Counted from the first letter of the stretch, positions 5,216 to 9,347 are shown. The stretch is DNA of 36,376 bases from Candidatus Methanomethylophilaceae archaeon (GCA_944321985.1 CALUNK010000007.1:1-36376); one strand, 5' to 3'. The notes: generated by a model from the letters alone, not told the origin. Numbers and translations: made by a program.

Positions 5216-5329
5216 GATGCGTCATGACCATATGACTATTTGATGGTGAAGCAGGGTAGGATCCCTGTATTCGACGGGTTCCTCTCAATCGTTCCGTTGG
5301 GCTCGGAGCGGGTCTTCGCATTCTCTTTT

Positions 5330-5418
5330 GTTTTCGTTGCTTCGAACGAAGCAGGAGAGGGCTTCCAATGAAATTGTTTGGAAGGGGCATGCGGATAGCC
5401 CAAGCCCCATCCGCATGC
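5330..5418 (-). terminator. Tandem hairpins after the six-gene operon
   Basis: Directly after the stop of the membrane-protein gene are three inverted repeats: GCATGCGGAT (5387-5396) with its complement at 5409-5418 (10 perfect pairs, 12-base loop), CTTCCAA (5362-5368) with TTGGAAG (5378-5384), and GCTTCG/CGAAGC at 5339-5352. They probably end or protect the operon transcript. No T-run follows in the minus direction, so a 3'-end stability role is as likely as termination. The rest of the 5216-5428 gap shows no gene. Confidence 0.5.
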
Positions 5419-5428
5419 TGTTTCGGGT

Positions 5429-6094
5429 TCATCTGTTGCGGACCGTCCTCTCCCTCTTGGTGACGGTGTCCTTGAGGTCTGTGCACAGGATCCTGACGGT
5501 CTGTACGTCTTCCTTGTCGCGGACAGCTATCAGGATCTGGTTGGCCAATCCAGCGATGGTGATGTTTAGGTTTTCCACGTCCTTGGACTTGGGGGACGTC
5601 ATCGAGCGTACGGCGTCGTACGCGATTTCGATCTCCCTCATCATCTTCTTGTCATCGCACAGATCCATGGCGTCCTCCAGCGTGTTTTGAATCGAGCGGA
5701 ACGAACTCATCCTCTCATCGGTGAGCTTGTCGGATTCTGCCGTCTTCATGTTGGCATGGAGATTGAACGCGAAAACGGCCACCTCCACGATGAAGTAGAT
5801 TATCTCGACAGTAATCACAAGGGATTCTTCAAAGTCCATCAGTATGAAGATGAAGGTGAGGGCCGCACTAATGATCACGAAGATGATGACCAGTATGATC
5901 GACGATAATGCGAACACATCACCGTTCCTGCCCTTTGGGGAAGCGAGGGTGAATCCGATACCGATTCCGAAGGCGACGTTCATCGATATCGCAGAGACCA
6001 TCGCGATGTTTGTCCAGTCATCCACCAGGGTGTAGATGACTATGTCCAATATTGCAAGCAAGACTATTATCGACAGTGTATATCCAATTCTCAT
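5429..6094 (-). CDS. Four-helix membrane protein, unknown function
   Basis: No family recognised. The ATG at 6094 overlaps the preceding stop by four bases (ATGA) and gives 221 residues; a start at 6112 would run into the upstream gene and is less likely. Four hydrophobic helices are visible at about residues 5-25, 32-53, 66-89 and 92-115, followed by a soluble, charged, largely helical C-terminal half of about 105 residues with no cysteine pairs. It is the last gene of the operon and may anchor the soluble SPFH/zinc-ribbon protein to the membrane, an inference by analogy with the Bacillus YdjG-YdjH-YdjI group. Confidence 0.8.
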   Translation of the reverse strand: MRIGYTLSIIVLLAILDIVIYTLVDDWTNIAMVSAISMNVAFGIGIGFTLASPKGRNGDVFALSSIILVIIFVIISAALTFIFILMDFEESLVITVEIIYFIVEVAVFAFNLHANMKTAESDKLTDERMSSFRSIQNTLEDAMDLCDDKKMMREIEIAYDAVRSMTSPKSKDVENLNITIAGLANQILIAVRDKEDVQTVRILCTDLKDTVTKRERTVRNR

Positions 6095-7251
6095 CTCAAT
6101 CCCTTCCCGCATTCAGGGCAGAACTTTGACGAAGGTCCAACTTCGGTTCCACACTCTGGACAAGTTATTTTGACGGAAGCACCGCACTCAGGGCAGAACT
6201 TGGCACCCGGGGAGACCCTGTGTCCGCACGGTGCCACGATGGTGTTCGCATCCTGTTCTGGAACAGGGGCGGCACTGGGGGCGCTCGGACGAGGGTTCCC
6301 CAAAGGAGAGAGGAGGCCGTTGGCAGCAGATCCCATGACTCCGCCCATCGCGATTCCGGCTCCTAGCCCGAGTCCCTCGCCAACAACTCCCGAATGTGGG
6401 TTGTTGGCCGCACTCATCATAATCTCGGCGGTCTTTACACGGCCGTAGTCGTCCCCGAGTATGGTGACCTCCGATAACGATCCCCTTGCATGGACCATCT
6501 TGGCTGCGGCCTGAGCCCTGGCCTCCTTCAGAATCAGGTACGATTCGTCTTCGACAATCTCAAGGGCCTCCACATAGAAGTTCACGATGCGCACTCCGTA
6601 CTCGTCGAACGCTGCCTCCATGGGTTCCCTCATCATCTCCGCGATCTCCTCAAGACGGGAGCTTATCCCGACTATCTCCCTGTCCAATCCGGATACGATC
6701 TGAGCTATGACGGTCTTGATCTTCTGGTTGATGGGCGACCTCATGTCAGCGGAAATGTCATCAGCCGTGAGTGACGATGCGGTCGCACCAGCGAATTTGA
6801 GGTAGAACTTCTTGGCATCGGCAATCTGGAGCGAATACGATCCACGGGCGATCATGTTCACAGCCATGCCGTACACGTTGTCGACAACCTGTATCGGGCC
6901 GTCGGTTCCCCACCTGTTGTTGAGCTGGTGTGTCTTGTTGACGTAGATGATGCGGCAGTTGTATGCGCTTATACCACCGGATGCGACGTTCCTTATCCTG
7001 CTGAGGAACGCGTAGTTGTTGGTGCTTAGGGTATACTCGCCACCCGTGAACGATGCCTCTACGACACCGTTCTTGTAAAACAGCGCCTCCTCGTTCTCGG
7101 CGACGATGACCTTGGATCCCTCGTTGAAATCTTCGTATGGGACGCGCCACAGAATTACGTTGCGGGCGGCCTCGTTCTTTATTATCGTGAGTATGGTTTT
7201 CTTTCCAGTGGGGTAAAGCGCCTCGTTGGGATTCTTCCGCAGTAATGACAT
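6091..7251 (-). CDS. SPFH-domain (YdjI/virion core protein-like) with C-terminal double zinc ribbon
   Basis: A 386-residue protein resembling the SPFH 'virion core protein'/YdjI family. Residues about 25-250 form the SPFH-like part (for example NVILWRVPYEDFNEGSKVIV, and the helix region EEIAEMMREPMEAAFDEYGV). A glycine/alanine-rich and proline-rich linker follows (about 285-335). The end holds two zinc-binding units with CGH..CPEC and CPEC..CPEC spacing. The ATG has a strong AGGAGGT ribosome site just upstream. In Bacillus subtilis YdjI works with the zinc-ribbon protein YdjG in a membrane-stress complex that recruits PspA; no PspA is encoded nearby here. Role in this archaeon unknown. Confidence 0.85.
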   Translation of the reverse strand: MSLLRKNPNEALYPTGKKTILTIIKNEAARNVILWRVPYEDFNEGSKVIVAENEEALFYKNGVVEASFTGGEYTLSTNNYAFLSRIRNVASGGISAYNCRIIYVNKTHQLNNRWGTDGPIQVVDNVYGMAVNMIARGSYSLQIADAKKFYLKFAGATASSLTADDISADMRSPINQKIKTVIAQIVSGLDREIVGISSRLEEIAEMMREPMEAAFDEYGVRIVNFYVEALEIVEDESYLILKEARAQAAAKMVHARGSLSEVTILGDDYGRVKTAEIMMSAANNPHSGVVGEGLGLGAGIAMGGVMGSAANGLLSPLGNPRPSAPSAAPVPEQDANTIVAPCGHRVSPGAKFCPECGASVKITCPECGTEVGPSSKFCPECGKGLR

Positions 7252-7278
7252 TCTAGACCTCCTTCGACGTTATTTTGT

Positions 7279-7791
7279 TCAATCCGCAGGCATGGGCTGG
7301 ACCCTCAGAATCACATTGCCAATCGAGACCATGTCCCCGTAGTGGAGTCTCGAGGAGTTCGAGCCGAGGGCGATCCCGTTGATGTTCATGCGGACCTTCT
7401 GTTCCTTGCTGATGTTCAGGCTTTTTCCGATGCCGGAGATCTGCACTTTACCGGTCCCGGTTTCCGCGGCGATCTTCGCTTTGCACGGAATCGTCAGTCC
7501 ATCAGTCTTAATCTCCAATCCCAACGGATTGGGGTCCCCCGATGCCGCGCTGTCACGGTACTTCACGGTGATGGTGACCTCGTTCTCAATCGCGTGCTGG
7601 GTCTGTTCACCCTTGTAATACACGAAGAGGAAGAATTTCGCGGAATCCGACATTATGTTCACCACCTGGGACGGTGCCGCACGCGGGATCATGACCTTGT
7701 TGCCACAATACATGCAGAATCCGAATTCCATCGTGGTTTCGAACTTCAGCTCCCCGCCGCAATTCGGACATTTTAACGATATGGGTTCCAT
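7279..7791 (-). CDS. Zinc-ribbon protein with FHA-like C-terminus
   Basis: Protein of 170 residues starting at the ATG at 7791, preceded by AGGAG and five bases after the upstream stop. The N-terminus is a zinc ribbon (CPNCGG near residue 8 and CMYCGN near 27). The C-terminal half is beta-rich and ends RLHYGDMVSIGNVILRV, which resembles the last strands of FHA domains; the N-terminal FHA phosphopeptide-binding residues are not evident, so phospho-binding is uncertain. Zinc ribbons recur in the next gene, so the two products may form one assembly. Function unknown. Confidence 0.75.
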   Translation of the reverse strand: MEPISLKCPNCGGELKFETTMEFGFCMYCGNKVMIPRAAPSQVVNIMSDSAKFFLFVYYKGEQTQHAIENEVTITVKYRDSAASGDPNPLGLEIKTDGLTIPCKAKIAAETGTGKVQISGIGKSLNISKEQKVRMNINGIALGSNSSRLHYGDMVSIGNVILRVQPMPAD

Positions 7792-7795
7792 CGGA

Positions 7796-8263
7796 TCATC
7801 TCCTGAAGAAGGATCTCTTTCCGAACGAAGCGTCGAATATCGCGGCCTCGTCGTACATCTTGCTCTCTGCAAGGGCCGCCGCCTTGACCCTGAGAATCGT
7901 GGGGTCGTAGCCCTTCTCTATAGCCATCTTGTAGAATGAGGCAGAGGAGTCGTACTCCCCGATGCCGAAGTACGACTCGGCAAGGAAGACCAGGGAACTC
8001 ATATCATCCCGGTTGTCGTTGACATACTCCCTGAGATATCTCAGCCCGTTCCTTGATGTGGTCTTGATCAGGGCCATACCGAGATATTTTCTGAATTCGG
8101 GATCCGTGCCTCCTGAAGCCTCATAGAAAAGGAGGTCCGAGGCGCACTCGTCGAAGCATTTTAGTTCATACCACGTTTTTCCTCTGAGAAGGTACAATTC
8201 TATAGACATGGGGTCTTCCCTTATCTGGGAGGTGGCCATCTCCAATTCTGCGATGTCTGTCAT
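7796..8263 (-). CDS. Small TPR-like protein
   Basis: Helical protein of 155 residues built from TPR-type helix pairs: ELYLLRGKTWYELKCFDECASDL, SLVFLAESYFGIGEYDSSASFY and ILRVKAAALAESKMYDEAA show the W/L/G/Y/A/A spacing of tetratricopeptide repeats. No signal peptide or membrane helix. Its ATG overlaps the stop of the YidD-like gene by four bases. TPR proteins are usually adaptors, so it may bridge other products of this operon; no specific function can be assigned. Confidence 0.75.
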   Translation of the reverse strand: MTDIAELEMATSQIREDPMSIELYLLRGKTWYELKCFDECASDLLFYEASGGTDPEFRKYLGMALIKTTSRNGLRYLREYVNDNRDDMSSLVFLAESYFGIGEYDSSASFYKMAIEKGYDPTILRVKAAALAESKMYDEAAIFDASFGKRSFFRR

Positions 8264-8580
8264 GGTCTGTTCTCCTTTGGCCAGTCGGACAGCGGATCAG
8301 AGCATTGTTTGAGCCGTTCCATCGTAAGTAATGAAGCAGAAAGAAATCCGCATGTAAGGAACGATGCCCGGGCATATTCCGAACACGATGGGATGTGATT
8401 GCAGACATGCTCTTTGTTCTCTGTCTGATGTTGATAAAACTCGATGAGTAGGACAGCGATGTTATTGGGGAACGGTATCTTGGCCGTGCTACCGTATTCA
8501 CGCCTTCTTGTTATGTGTCTAAGGGTTGTGGGTGAGGGAGGTATTCCTTCGAATAGGGGTATCTCCCTCACCAGGGCCAT
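8260..8580 (-). CDS. YidD-like membrane insertion efficiency factor with N-terminal extension
   Basis: A 106-residue protein whose C-terminal two thirds match the small YidD (DUF37) family: LLIEFYQ at 44-50 (family LLIRFYQ), Cys60, PSCSEYA at 64-70 (family PTCSEYA), a GF..ASLLTMERL helix and Cys93-x-x-P in place of RCHP. In bacteria YidD is a membrane-associated helper of the YidC insertase. The first 40 residues have no counterpart in the usual 70-85 residue protein. The ATG at 8580 is supported by GAGG six bases upstream. The RCHP histidine is missing and one cysteine is shifted, so the protein may be divergent in function. Identified from motif memory only. Confidence 0.7.
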   Translation of the reverse strand: MALVREIPLFEGIPPSPTTLRHITRRREYGSTAKIPFPNNIAVLLIEFYQHQTENKEHVCNHIPSCSEYARASFLTCGFLSASLLTMERLKQCSDPLSDWPKENRP

Positions 8581-8595
8581 GCTACCGCCTCGGTT

Positions 8596-8952
8596 TCAGG
8601 TCCTCTCGTTGAACGCCTGAATGAGGGGCTTGACAGCATTGATGTTCTTTCCGACTATAATCGTGTAGACTGCCCCTTGCATGTTGACTTCAAGGACTCC
8701 CTGCTTTCCGAAGCATCCAATCTTCTGCTGGGCGGTCCTCATGTTAGTGATCTTGCTGATGGGGAAGTTCGCTGTCTCGTACGACTTCGTCTTCGAACCG
8801 GAATCATACAGTCTTGCGTTGTAGATGAGTCTCTCCTCAGTCAGTGCTATCCAACCGTATTTGCGGCTGAACAGGCCGTACCTGAGTTCCTGGAATTTGA
8901 CGATATTGTCTCCAGCTTTGATCTGGCTAAGTAGTTCTTGCGGATATGCCAT
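8596..8952 (-). CDS. PH-domain-like protein, first gene of the six-gene operon
   Basis: Small protein of 118 residues from the ATG at 8952; an in-frame upstream ATG at 9036 would extend across the promoter and operator-like repeats and is rejected. Sequence features typical of bacterial-type PH folds: an N-terminal helix, then strands with GLFSRKYGWIALTEERLIY, followed by ISKITNMR and a long C-terminal helix (AVKPLIQAFNER). Such domains often bind membranes or proteins. The A/T-rich TATA-like sequence lies about 20-30 bases upstream, suggesting a leaderless transcript. Fifteen bases separate it from the YidD-like gene. Confidence 0.72.
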   Translation of the reverse strand: MAYPQELLSQIKAGDNIVKFQELRYGLFSRKYGWIALTEERLIYNARLYDSGSKTKSYETANFPISKITNMRTAQQKIGCFGKQGVLEVNMQGAVYTIIVGKNINAVKPLIQAFNERT

Positions 8953-8965
8953 GATGTAAAAATAA

Positions 8966-9033
8966 TAGACTTTATATTTATAATGTCGTATGACATTTGT
9001 AAGATGTTCATACAAATGCCATTCTGATATATC
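8966..9033. promoter_or_regulatory. Divergent promoters with operator-like inverted repeats
   Basis: Between the PH-like gene (minus) and the RHH gene (plus). A TATA-like TTATAAATATAAA is read on the minus strand at about 8971-8983 and GATATATC on the plus strand at 9025-9032. Between them are two overlapping inverted repeats: ATGTC/GACAT (8983-8987 and 8992-8996) and CATTTGTA/TACAAATG (8994-9001 and 9011-9018, nine-base spacer). Position between two TATA boxes fits an operator controlling both transcripts. Confidence 0.6.
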
Positions 9034-9056
9034 CATGAAACAATTCTCCTAGTGTC

Positions 9057-9269
9057 ATGGGATCTCCAGGGCAGAACTCCGTCCAGATTACGTTCAAGGT
9101 CAATCGGGTGTTGAGAGATAAGATCGAGAAGGAGCGGGAGCTCAACGGGGGCACCCTATCCGAATTTCTCAACGATGCGGTAAAATTCTACATAGACTAC
9201 CTCGAAAGGAAGCGCTACGACGAGATGCAATACCAGCAGAGCATGAGGGAGTCCGATCGTAGGAATTGA
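9057..9269 (+). CDS. Ribbon-helix-helix (CopG/Arc-type) DNA-binding protein
   Basis: Seventy-residue protein with the RHH layout: a short strand NSVQITFKVNRVL, helix LRDKIEKERELNG, the turn GGTLSEFL and a second helix FLNDAVKFYIDYLERKR, then a charged tail. RHH proteins act as dimers that insert a beta ribbon in the DNA major groove and commonly repress their own promoter. It is divergent from the six-gene operon, with inverted repeats between the two promoters, so it is probably the local regulator (inference). There is no toxin-like partner next to it. Confidence 0.75.
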   Translation: MGSPGQNSVQITFKVNRVLRDKIEKERELNGGTLSEFLNDAVKFYIDYLERKRYDEMQYQQSMRESDRRN

Positions 9270-9308
9270 CGGATGTCGGCGATTCGCAACACATCCTGGA
9301 GCCAGTAA

Positions 9309-9320
9309 GGATTATACGTC
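9309..9320 (+). promoter_or_regulatory. TATA-like promoter of the carS operon
   Basis: GATTATACG at 9311-9319 lies about 30 bases before the carS ATG at 9348, the distance expected for an archaeal promoter giving a leader of about ten bases. Confidence 0.4.
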
Positions 9321-9347
9321 CAGTTTGCATCAGAGGATGCGATAGAT

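Follow-up and report, generated by a model that had tools for sequence, protein, structure and literature searches.

The closest described counterpart of the system reported here is pspA-ydjGHI of Bacillus subtilis (PMC8581546; PMC11237479; PMC9239133). YdjI, a soluble SPFH protein that bears a zinc finger, depends on YdjG and YdjH for its localisation at the membrane, where it is required for PspA (PMC8581546); YdjH is a TPM-domain protein, and YdjG combines zinc ribbons with a transmembrane (TM) segment (PMC11237479). A unit of six genes with an SPFH protein of similar design was found in a stretch of 36,376 nucleotides (the window) from Candidatus Methanomethylophilaceae archaeon (GCA_944321985.1, CALUNK010000007.1:1-36376). 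It encodes a PH-like protein, YidD, a tetratricopeptide repeat (TPR) protein, a zinc-ribbon protein, the SPFH protein and a membrane protein with four TM helices (4TM). The unit is best read as a compound cluster, which appears to have been laterally assembled from two modules with different histories, SPFH-4TM and PH-YidD-zinc ribbon, at a variable chromosomal slot. A first, sequence-only reading had proposed that the products form one envelope or membrane-stress assembly and that no system with this set had been described; in the literature we likewise found none, and no description of the six-gene set or of YidD in these archaea. The observation itself was confirmed, and the interpretation was borne out in part.

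The six complete reading frames follow each other on the minus strand from 8952 to 5429 in the order given above. YidD was above the curated cut-offs of PF01809 (1.3e-12, 47.7 bits versus 27) and TIGR00278 (45.9 bits versus 40) and has a CxxxPSCxxY motif and a DWPxExxP tail; the SPFH protein, with two C-terminal zinc ribbons, exceeded those of Band_7_1 (1.3e-31) and DZR (6.4e-13) in Pfam. By hydropathy the last protein has exactly four TM helices and the other five have none. These three assignments of the sequence-only reading could thus be confirmed, and its TPR assignment is backed by TPR_2 (6e-5, under the Pfam cut-off) and by the presence of the expected motifs. Its PH-like protein matched Pfam bPH_3 just at E 0.035, below threshold; the single-sequence AlphaFold2 model (pLDDT 71) has seven strands and a C-terminal helix, and Foldseek placed several PH domains among the PDB structures most similar to it (probability 1.00, E no better than 3e-3, TM-score about 0.5). 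A PH-type barrel capped by a C-terminal helix can be assigned with moderate confidence on the basis of this model. For the fourth protein, the zinc ribbon proposed before was retained (Zn_Ribbon_TF 8e-4, sub-threshold, yet a clear CxxC...CxxC), but the FHA-like part was dropped as unsupported, there being no Pfam FHA match at E<=1 and an unusable model (pLDDT 36). Sequence searches of the PDB with the SPFH, zinc-ribbon and PH-like proteins returned nothing informative.

SPFH-4TM is a widespread bacterial gene pair, common in gut Bacillota. In an iterated search with hidden Markov models (HMM), the 4TM gene lay directly downstream of the SPFH gene in 44 of 100 loci, a count of abutting gene models alone, with the 4TM gene called as overlapping or upstream at a few more loci. 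Five further genomes of the family contain SPFH orthologues with 42–49% identity, each followed by a 4TM homologue, although the sequences of two of the five (G003 and G013) seem to be identical. Independent BLAST matches to the 4TM protein were obtained in five relatives, and the HMM of its family detected the window gene with E 4e-55, the window sequence itself being part of the model. A tree of 95 SPFH sequences placed the window protein and those of G003, G028, G026 and G034 in one archaeal clade (support 100/100). The sister of this clade is L022, a sequence from Clostridia (100/96), and the clade is nested in a Bacillota group (98/83), well away from SPFH sequences belonging to the other families of the order; adjacency of the two genes is kept in L101–L104 and in the Clostridia locus. 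Because the archaeal clade is nested within Bacillota SPFH, gut Bacillota look like the source from which the archaeal form of the pair was acquired. The uncharacterised pair of gut Bacillota, Sulfurospirillum and Synergistota resembles the window unit in its SPFH clade and in the downstream 4TM homologue; it differs in that small TM and zinc-ribbon proteins often follow downstream, and no YidD, PH or full-length zinc-ribbon homologue was found near the bacterial loci that were retrieved. Three archaeal loci (L101, L103, L104) have orthologous TPR/zinc-type and zinc-ribbon genes upstream of SPFH-4TM, so that the combination of zinc ribbon, SPFH and 4TM recurs with different adaptors; in G034 (L102) the pair stands without such partners.

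Other SPFH genes were noticed during these searches. A second, short match is present in the genome of the window itself (G000 contig C25:19214-19663, an open frame of 193 amino acids). In other families of the order (L105, L107, L113) a conserved operon codes for a helical protein of 176 amino acids, an SPFH protein with zinc ribbons and three zinc-ribbon proteins, two of these with apparent TM ends; NfeD-like and flotillin-like genes then follow in L107 and L113. It seems to be an archaeal SPFH system passed on by vertical descent. On the 20-kb plasmid pNP21 of Butyrivibrio fibrisolvens (L162) an SPFH homologue (35%) lies beside a recombinase and a toxin-antitoxin pair. A contig from a viral collection (L169, 3995-7994) contains an SPFH gene, genes for a TM-type protein of 156 amino acids and for a protein of 295 amino acids that by eye resembles a PH-like part joined to a zinc ribbon, and one more SPFH gene. 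This locus is of bacterial type and unites the kinds of domain present in the window unit.

The genes of the second module are rare. A two-sequence profile detected the PH-like protein in 2 of 102 genomes of the family, and the full-length zinc-ribbon protein occurred in exactly the same two (chance 2e-4, based on two independent pairs), the remaining matches of the latter being mostly to its N-terminal ribbon. YidD was present in 4 of the 102; in a sample of 300 genomes of the class it exceeded the cut-off in three, namely the window genome, G033 and G185. The G185 match comes from a 3.7-kb contig of unclear origin and was given no weight. YidD is absent from the other 30 genomes of the genus, as are the PH-like and the full-length zinc-ribbon protein, and no homologue of the TPR protein occurred among the loci retrieved; for these four genes the scattering in relatives which the sequence-only reading had named as evidence against a single system is therefore partly what was observed.

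A genome of a different genus, G350, repeats the gene order PH, YidD, zinc ribbon, and there the latter two overlap by ATGA. Identities are 50% for PH (L159:7874-8224), 42% over 78 amino acids for YidD and 24% (5e-14) for the full-length zinc-ribbon protein (L159:8574-9050). About 1.5 kb away, on the opposite strand, are an SPFH gene (Band_7_1 8.7e-17) and a DUF4428 gene. G033, a closed genome (YidD identity 38%), and G336 each encode YidD together with a zinc ribbon-TPR protein and a larger protein whose C-terminal region looks PH-like by eye; in G336, YidD is on the opposite strand from the other two. The G336 set (L158 6526-7959) is located between NuoN-like and GGPS genes, which is another slot of the same lipid-gene block that harbours the window unit.

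The N-terminal ribbon of the window zinc-ribbon protein is common to many proteins of the family with different C-termini. A near-identical N-terminal zinc ribbon, LKCPxCGGxLxFEDxxEFGFCxYCGTKxMI, was seen in many Methanomethylophilaceae-type proteins (L121–L131, L165–L168), fused to very different C-terminal parts (TPR-like, beta-rich and others), a modular family; several of the genes adjoin leucine-rich-repeat surface-type genes. Searches for YidD in plasmids and phages gave no match, nor did the PH profile on viral contigs. One contig of a viral collection (L161, 4735-5189) has a non-canonical YidD overlapping a DUF4177-like gene; it was set aside as bacterial-type, following that gene.

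The distribution of YidD bears on the idea that it is a dedicated insertion helper for the 4TM protein of the unit, acting with an archaeal insertase of the Oxa1 family, and that the remaining genes are passengers. In E. coli, YidD has been listed among the Sec interactors, as a putative factor for insertion efficiency (PMC8082313), the window genome has an Oxa1-superfamily EMC3/TMCO1 gene (2e-17), and the 4TM gene lies within the unit. The idea of a private helper is weakened, however, because SPFH-4TM occurs without adjoining YidD at the other loci seen, and no such 4TM gene lies near the YidD cassettes of G350, G033 and G336; we consider it very improbable.

The unit sits between NOB1 and CarS, inside a block (NuoN-like/GGPS/GGR/NOB1/CarS/PyrE/UDG) which is syntenic in relatives. 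The slot was compared with L140–L143, L146, L147, L149–L152 and L155. The distance from NOB1 to CarS is 80–135 bp in five relatives versus 4132 bp in the window; in the three closest relatives the slot measures about 1.5 kb and holds one gene (in L141 an MFS-type transporter, by eye), and in others it is filled by different genes. The interval is an insertion hot spot, and the window holds a species-specific insertion of about 4.1 kb, since the slot of the relatives is empty or occupied by other genes. An assembly chimera or contamination was ruled out, because both flanks, up to and including NOB1 and from CarS onwards, are syntenic and up to 97% identical in genomes of the same genus.

The guanine plus cytosine (GC) content of the unit genes is 49–56% versus 57–63% in the neighbours, and that of third codon positions (GC3) of yidD is 51% versus 77–86%. 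This composition, together with the hot spot and the sporadic distribution, could point to a defence system or the cargo of a mobile element, for example for phage-responsive membrane sealing, as could the related SPFH genes on the Butyrivibrio plasmid and on viral-collection contig L169. On the other hand, none of the six proteins had a PADLOC match, PHROG yielded just a zinc-ribbon-only match and no function-bearing one, and no nuclease, nucleotide-signalling or effector domain was detected in the six; such a role would therefore seem very unlikely.

The one-unit reading of the six genes was upheld by the layout. The coordinates hold, with ATGA overlaps (-4 nt) at the YidD/TPR and SPFH/4TM junctions and gaps of 15 nt (PH-like/YidD), 4 nt (TPR/zinc ribbon) and 27 nt (zinc ribbon/SPFH). 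A TATA-like element, TTATAAATATA, precedes the ATG of the PH-like gene by about 25 nt, and that gene has no Shine-Dalgarno site, for which reasons its transcript is probably leaderless; the internal genes carry Shine-Dalgarno-like sites of the GGAG/GAGG type. Between the unit and a divergent gene is an inverted repeat with 15-nt arms (87% complementary; core CATTTGTA-N9-TACAAATG, expected 0.00 times in shuffles), a candidate operator. The divergent gene codes for a protein which resembles a ribbon-helix-helix (RHH) regulator by eye, has no Pfam match and occurs, among the loci retrieved, in the window genome only. From the TATA-like element, the Shine-Dalgarno-like sites, the tight spacing with overlaps, and the upstream repeat and divergent gene, one transcription unit is strongly suggested. 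The TATA-like element and ribosome-binding sites, along with sub-blocks that recur in other genomes, argue for a layout beyond chance. Coordinates are listed in Table 1.

Table 1. Features of the six-gene unit and its slot, in positions of the window.
Feature	Position	Strand	Basis
PH-like protein, 118 amino acids, leads the unit	8596..8952	-	model with PH topology; bPH_3 E 0.035; G350 homologue
YidD, 106 amino acids	8260..8580	-	PF01809, TIGR00278 above cut-offs
TPR protein, 155 amino acids	7796..8263	-	TPR_2 6e-5
Zinc ribbon plus C-terminal region, 170 amino acids	7279..7791	-	CxxC..CxxC; Zn_Ribbon_TF 8e-4
SPFH/Band_7_1 protein, two C-terminal zinc ribbons, 386 amino acids, no TM helix	6091..7251	-	Band_7_1, DZR
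Membrane protein, four TM helices and helical tail, 221 amino acids	5429..6094	-	hydropathy; family HMM
Archaeal TATA-like element TTATAAATATA	8963..8982 (approximate)	-	read from sequence
Inverted repeat, candidate operator	8990..9022	.	15-nt arms
Divergent small protein, 70 amino acids, RHH-like	9057..9269	+	assigned by eye
Whole insertion slot, NOB1 to CarS, 4132 bp	5216..9347	.	80-135 bp in five relatives

The products may well form an SPFH-based assembly on the membrane surface, which is the reading that we prefer. The soluble SPFH protein would oligomerise at the cytoplasmic face of the membrane, held there by the 4TM protein as YdjI is held by YdjH and YdjG in Bacillus; the PH-like protein and YidD would attach to the membrane surface, with the zinc-ribbon and TPR proteins as adaptors linking them. 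The likely task of the assembly would be to maintain the membrane or membrane proteins under stress, with no part for PspA. We give this proposal as a whole an even chance. Anchoring of SPFH by the 4TM protein is probably its best founded step, from the analogy and the conserved adjacency; the physical complex, the adaptor roles and the stress function, as well as the envelope or membrane-stress role suggested by the sequence-only reading, are, like the anchoring, what we infer. The link between the modules, which is based on the one operon and on proximity in G350, could go either way. The assembly is favoured by the one-unit layout, by the conserved SPFH-4TM adjacency, by the return of zinc ribbon, SPFH and 4TM with different adaptors, by the restriction of PH and full-length zinc-ribbon proteins to the same two genomes, by the recurrence of PH-YidD-zinc ribbon near an SPFH gene in a second genus and by the joint occurrence of PH-like, zinc ribbon/TPR and YidD in G033 and G336.

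Several observations weigh against it. Sub-blocks of the set recur, but the whole set was found in no other genome searched and is thus unique to one genome, which is incomplete (86%). The SPFH protein of G350 is a distant paralogue (25% identity, on a very long branch) encoded on the opposite strand; SPFH and 4TM genes are lacking in the vicinity of the cassettes of G033 and G336, which means that the two modules are separable; and the hot spot also takes unrelated genes, so that the adjacency may be accidental. Two unrelated cassettes could share a promoter merely by way of the same slot, SPFH-4TM being a scaffold on its own and PH-YidD-TPR-zinc ribbon having another job; the varied contents of the slot in relatives, the unaccompanied pair of G034, the cassettes without SPFH in G033 and G336, and the union of both modules in a single genome would fit. 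The SPFH gene close to PH-YidD-zinc ribbon in G350, the zinc-ribbon and TPR-type partners before SPFH-4TM at three other loci and the tight spacing of all six genes speak against this explanation, which we regard as rather unlikely. The most far-reaching formulation is tentative and has somewhat less than an even chance: PH-YidD-zinc-ribbon(-TPR) would be an undescribed archaeal membrane-surface module, joined in some species to the SPFH-4TM scaffold, for PspA-free maintenance or membrane-protein quality control, and YidD would have left its YidC setting and joined a lipid-binding PH protein.

The cluster points to a branch of SPFH membrane scaffolds that does without PspA, and to the movement of gut-bacterial membrane-maintenance genes into methanogens with their ether-lipid membranes. 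No study of the SPFH-4TM pair, widespread as it is in gut bacteria, was found in the literature. The repeated association of archaeal YidD with PH and zinc-ribbon genes would offer an independent approach to the function of YidD.

Compared with known systems, the likeness to Bacillus YdjG-H-I claimed by the sequence-only reading was borne out for the SPFH/zinc-ribbon design and the TM partner: each operon combines a soluble SPFH/Band-7 protein, ending in one or more zinc ribbons, with a zinc-ribbon protein and a TM protein. It failed for PspA, the TPM-domain YdjH and the TM-bearing YdjG. A search of 31 genomes of the genus, including 17 of high quality, found PspA (PF04012) in none, while PF04012 matched in 9 of 14 controls; none of the six proteins had a Pfam match to the TPM domain; and the zinc-ribbon protein, unlike YdjG, has no hydropathy peak. 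In addition, the window unit contains PH, YidD and TPR proteins, and its TM partner is the 4TM family downstream of SPFH. Membership in pspA-ydjGHI was therefore rejected, and direct transfer of the YdjGHI model fails because PspA, its functional centre, is missing in the whole genus; by analogy, the unit may nevertheless anchor SPFH at the membrane in the manner of YdjGHI. The archaeal Meth_adaptin ESCRT loci (PMC10936438) also combine SPFH with a zinc-ribbon protein, in a membrane-remodelling locus, but the window unit is without a Vps4, ESCRT-III or adaptin-like gene.

Work on YidD has treated it as an accessory factor of the bacterial YidC/Sec pathway. The window protein keeps the core motif of the family; it is archaeal, however, differs by its DWPxExxP tail and stands outside rnpA-yidD-yidC, adjoining PH upstream and TPR downstream, and the contexts in G350, G033 and G336 are similar. 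The SPFH/zinc-ribbon design is already known from Bacillus, the recruitment of YidD is unusual, and the recurrent archaeal PH-YidD-zinc-ribbon cassette is the newest part.

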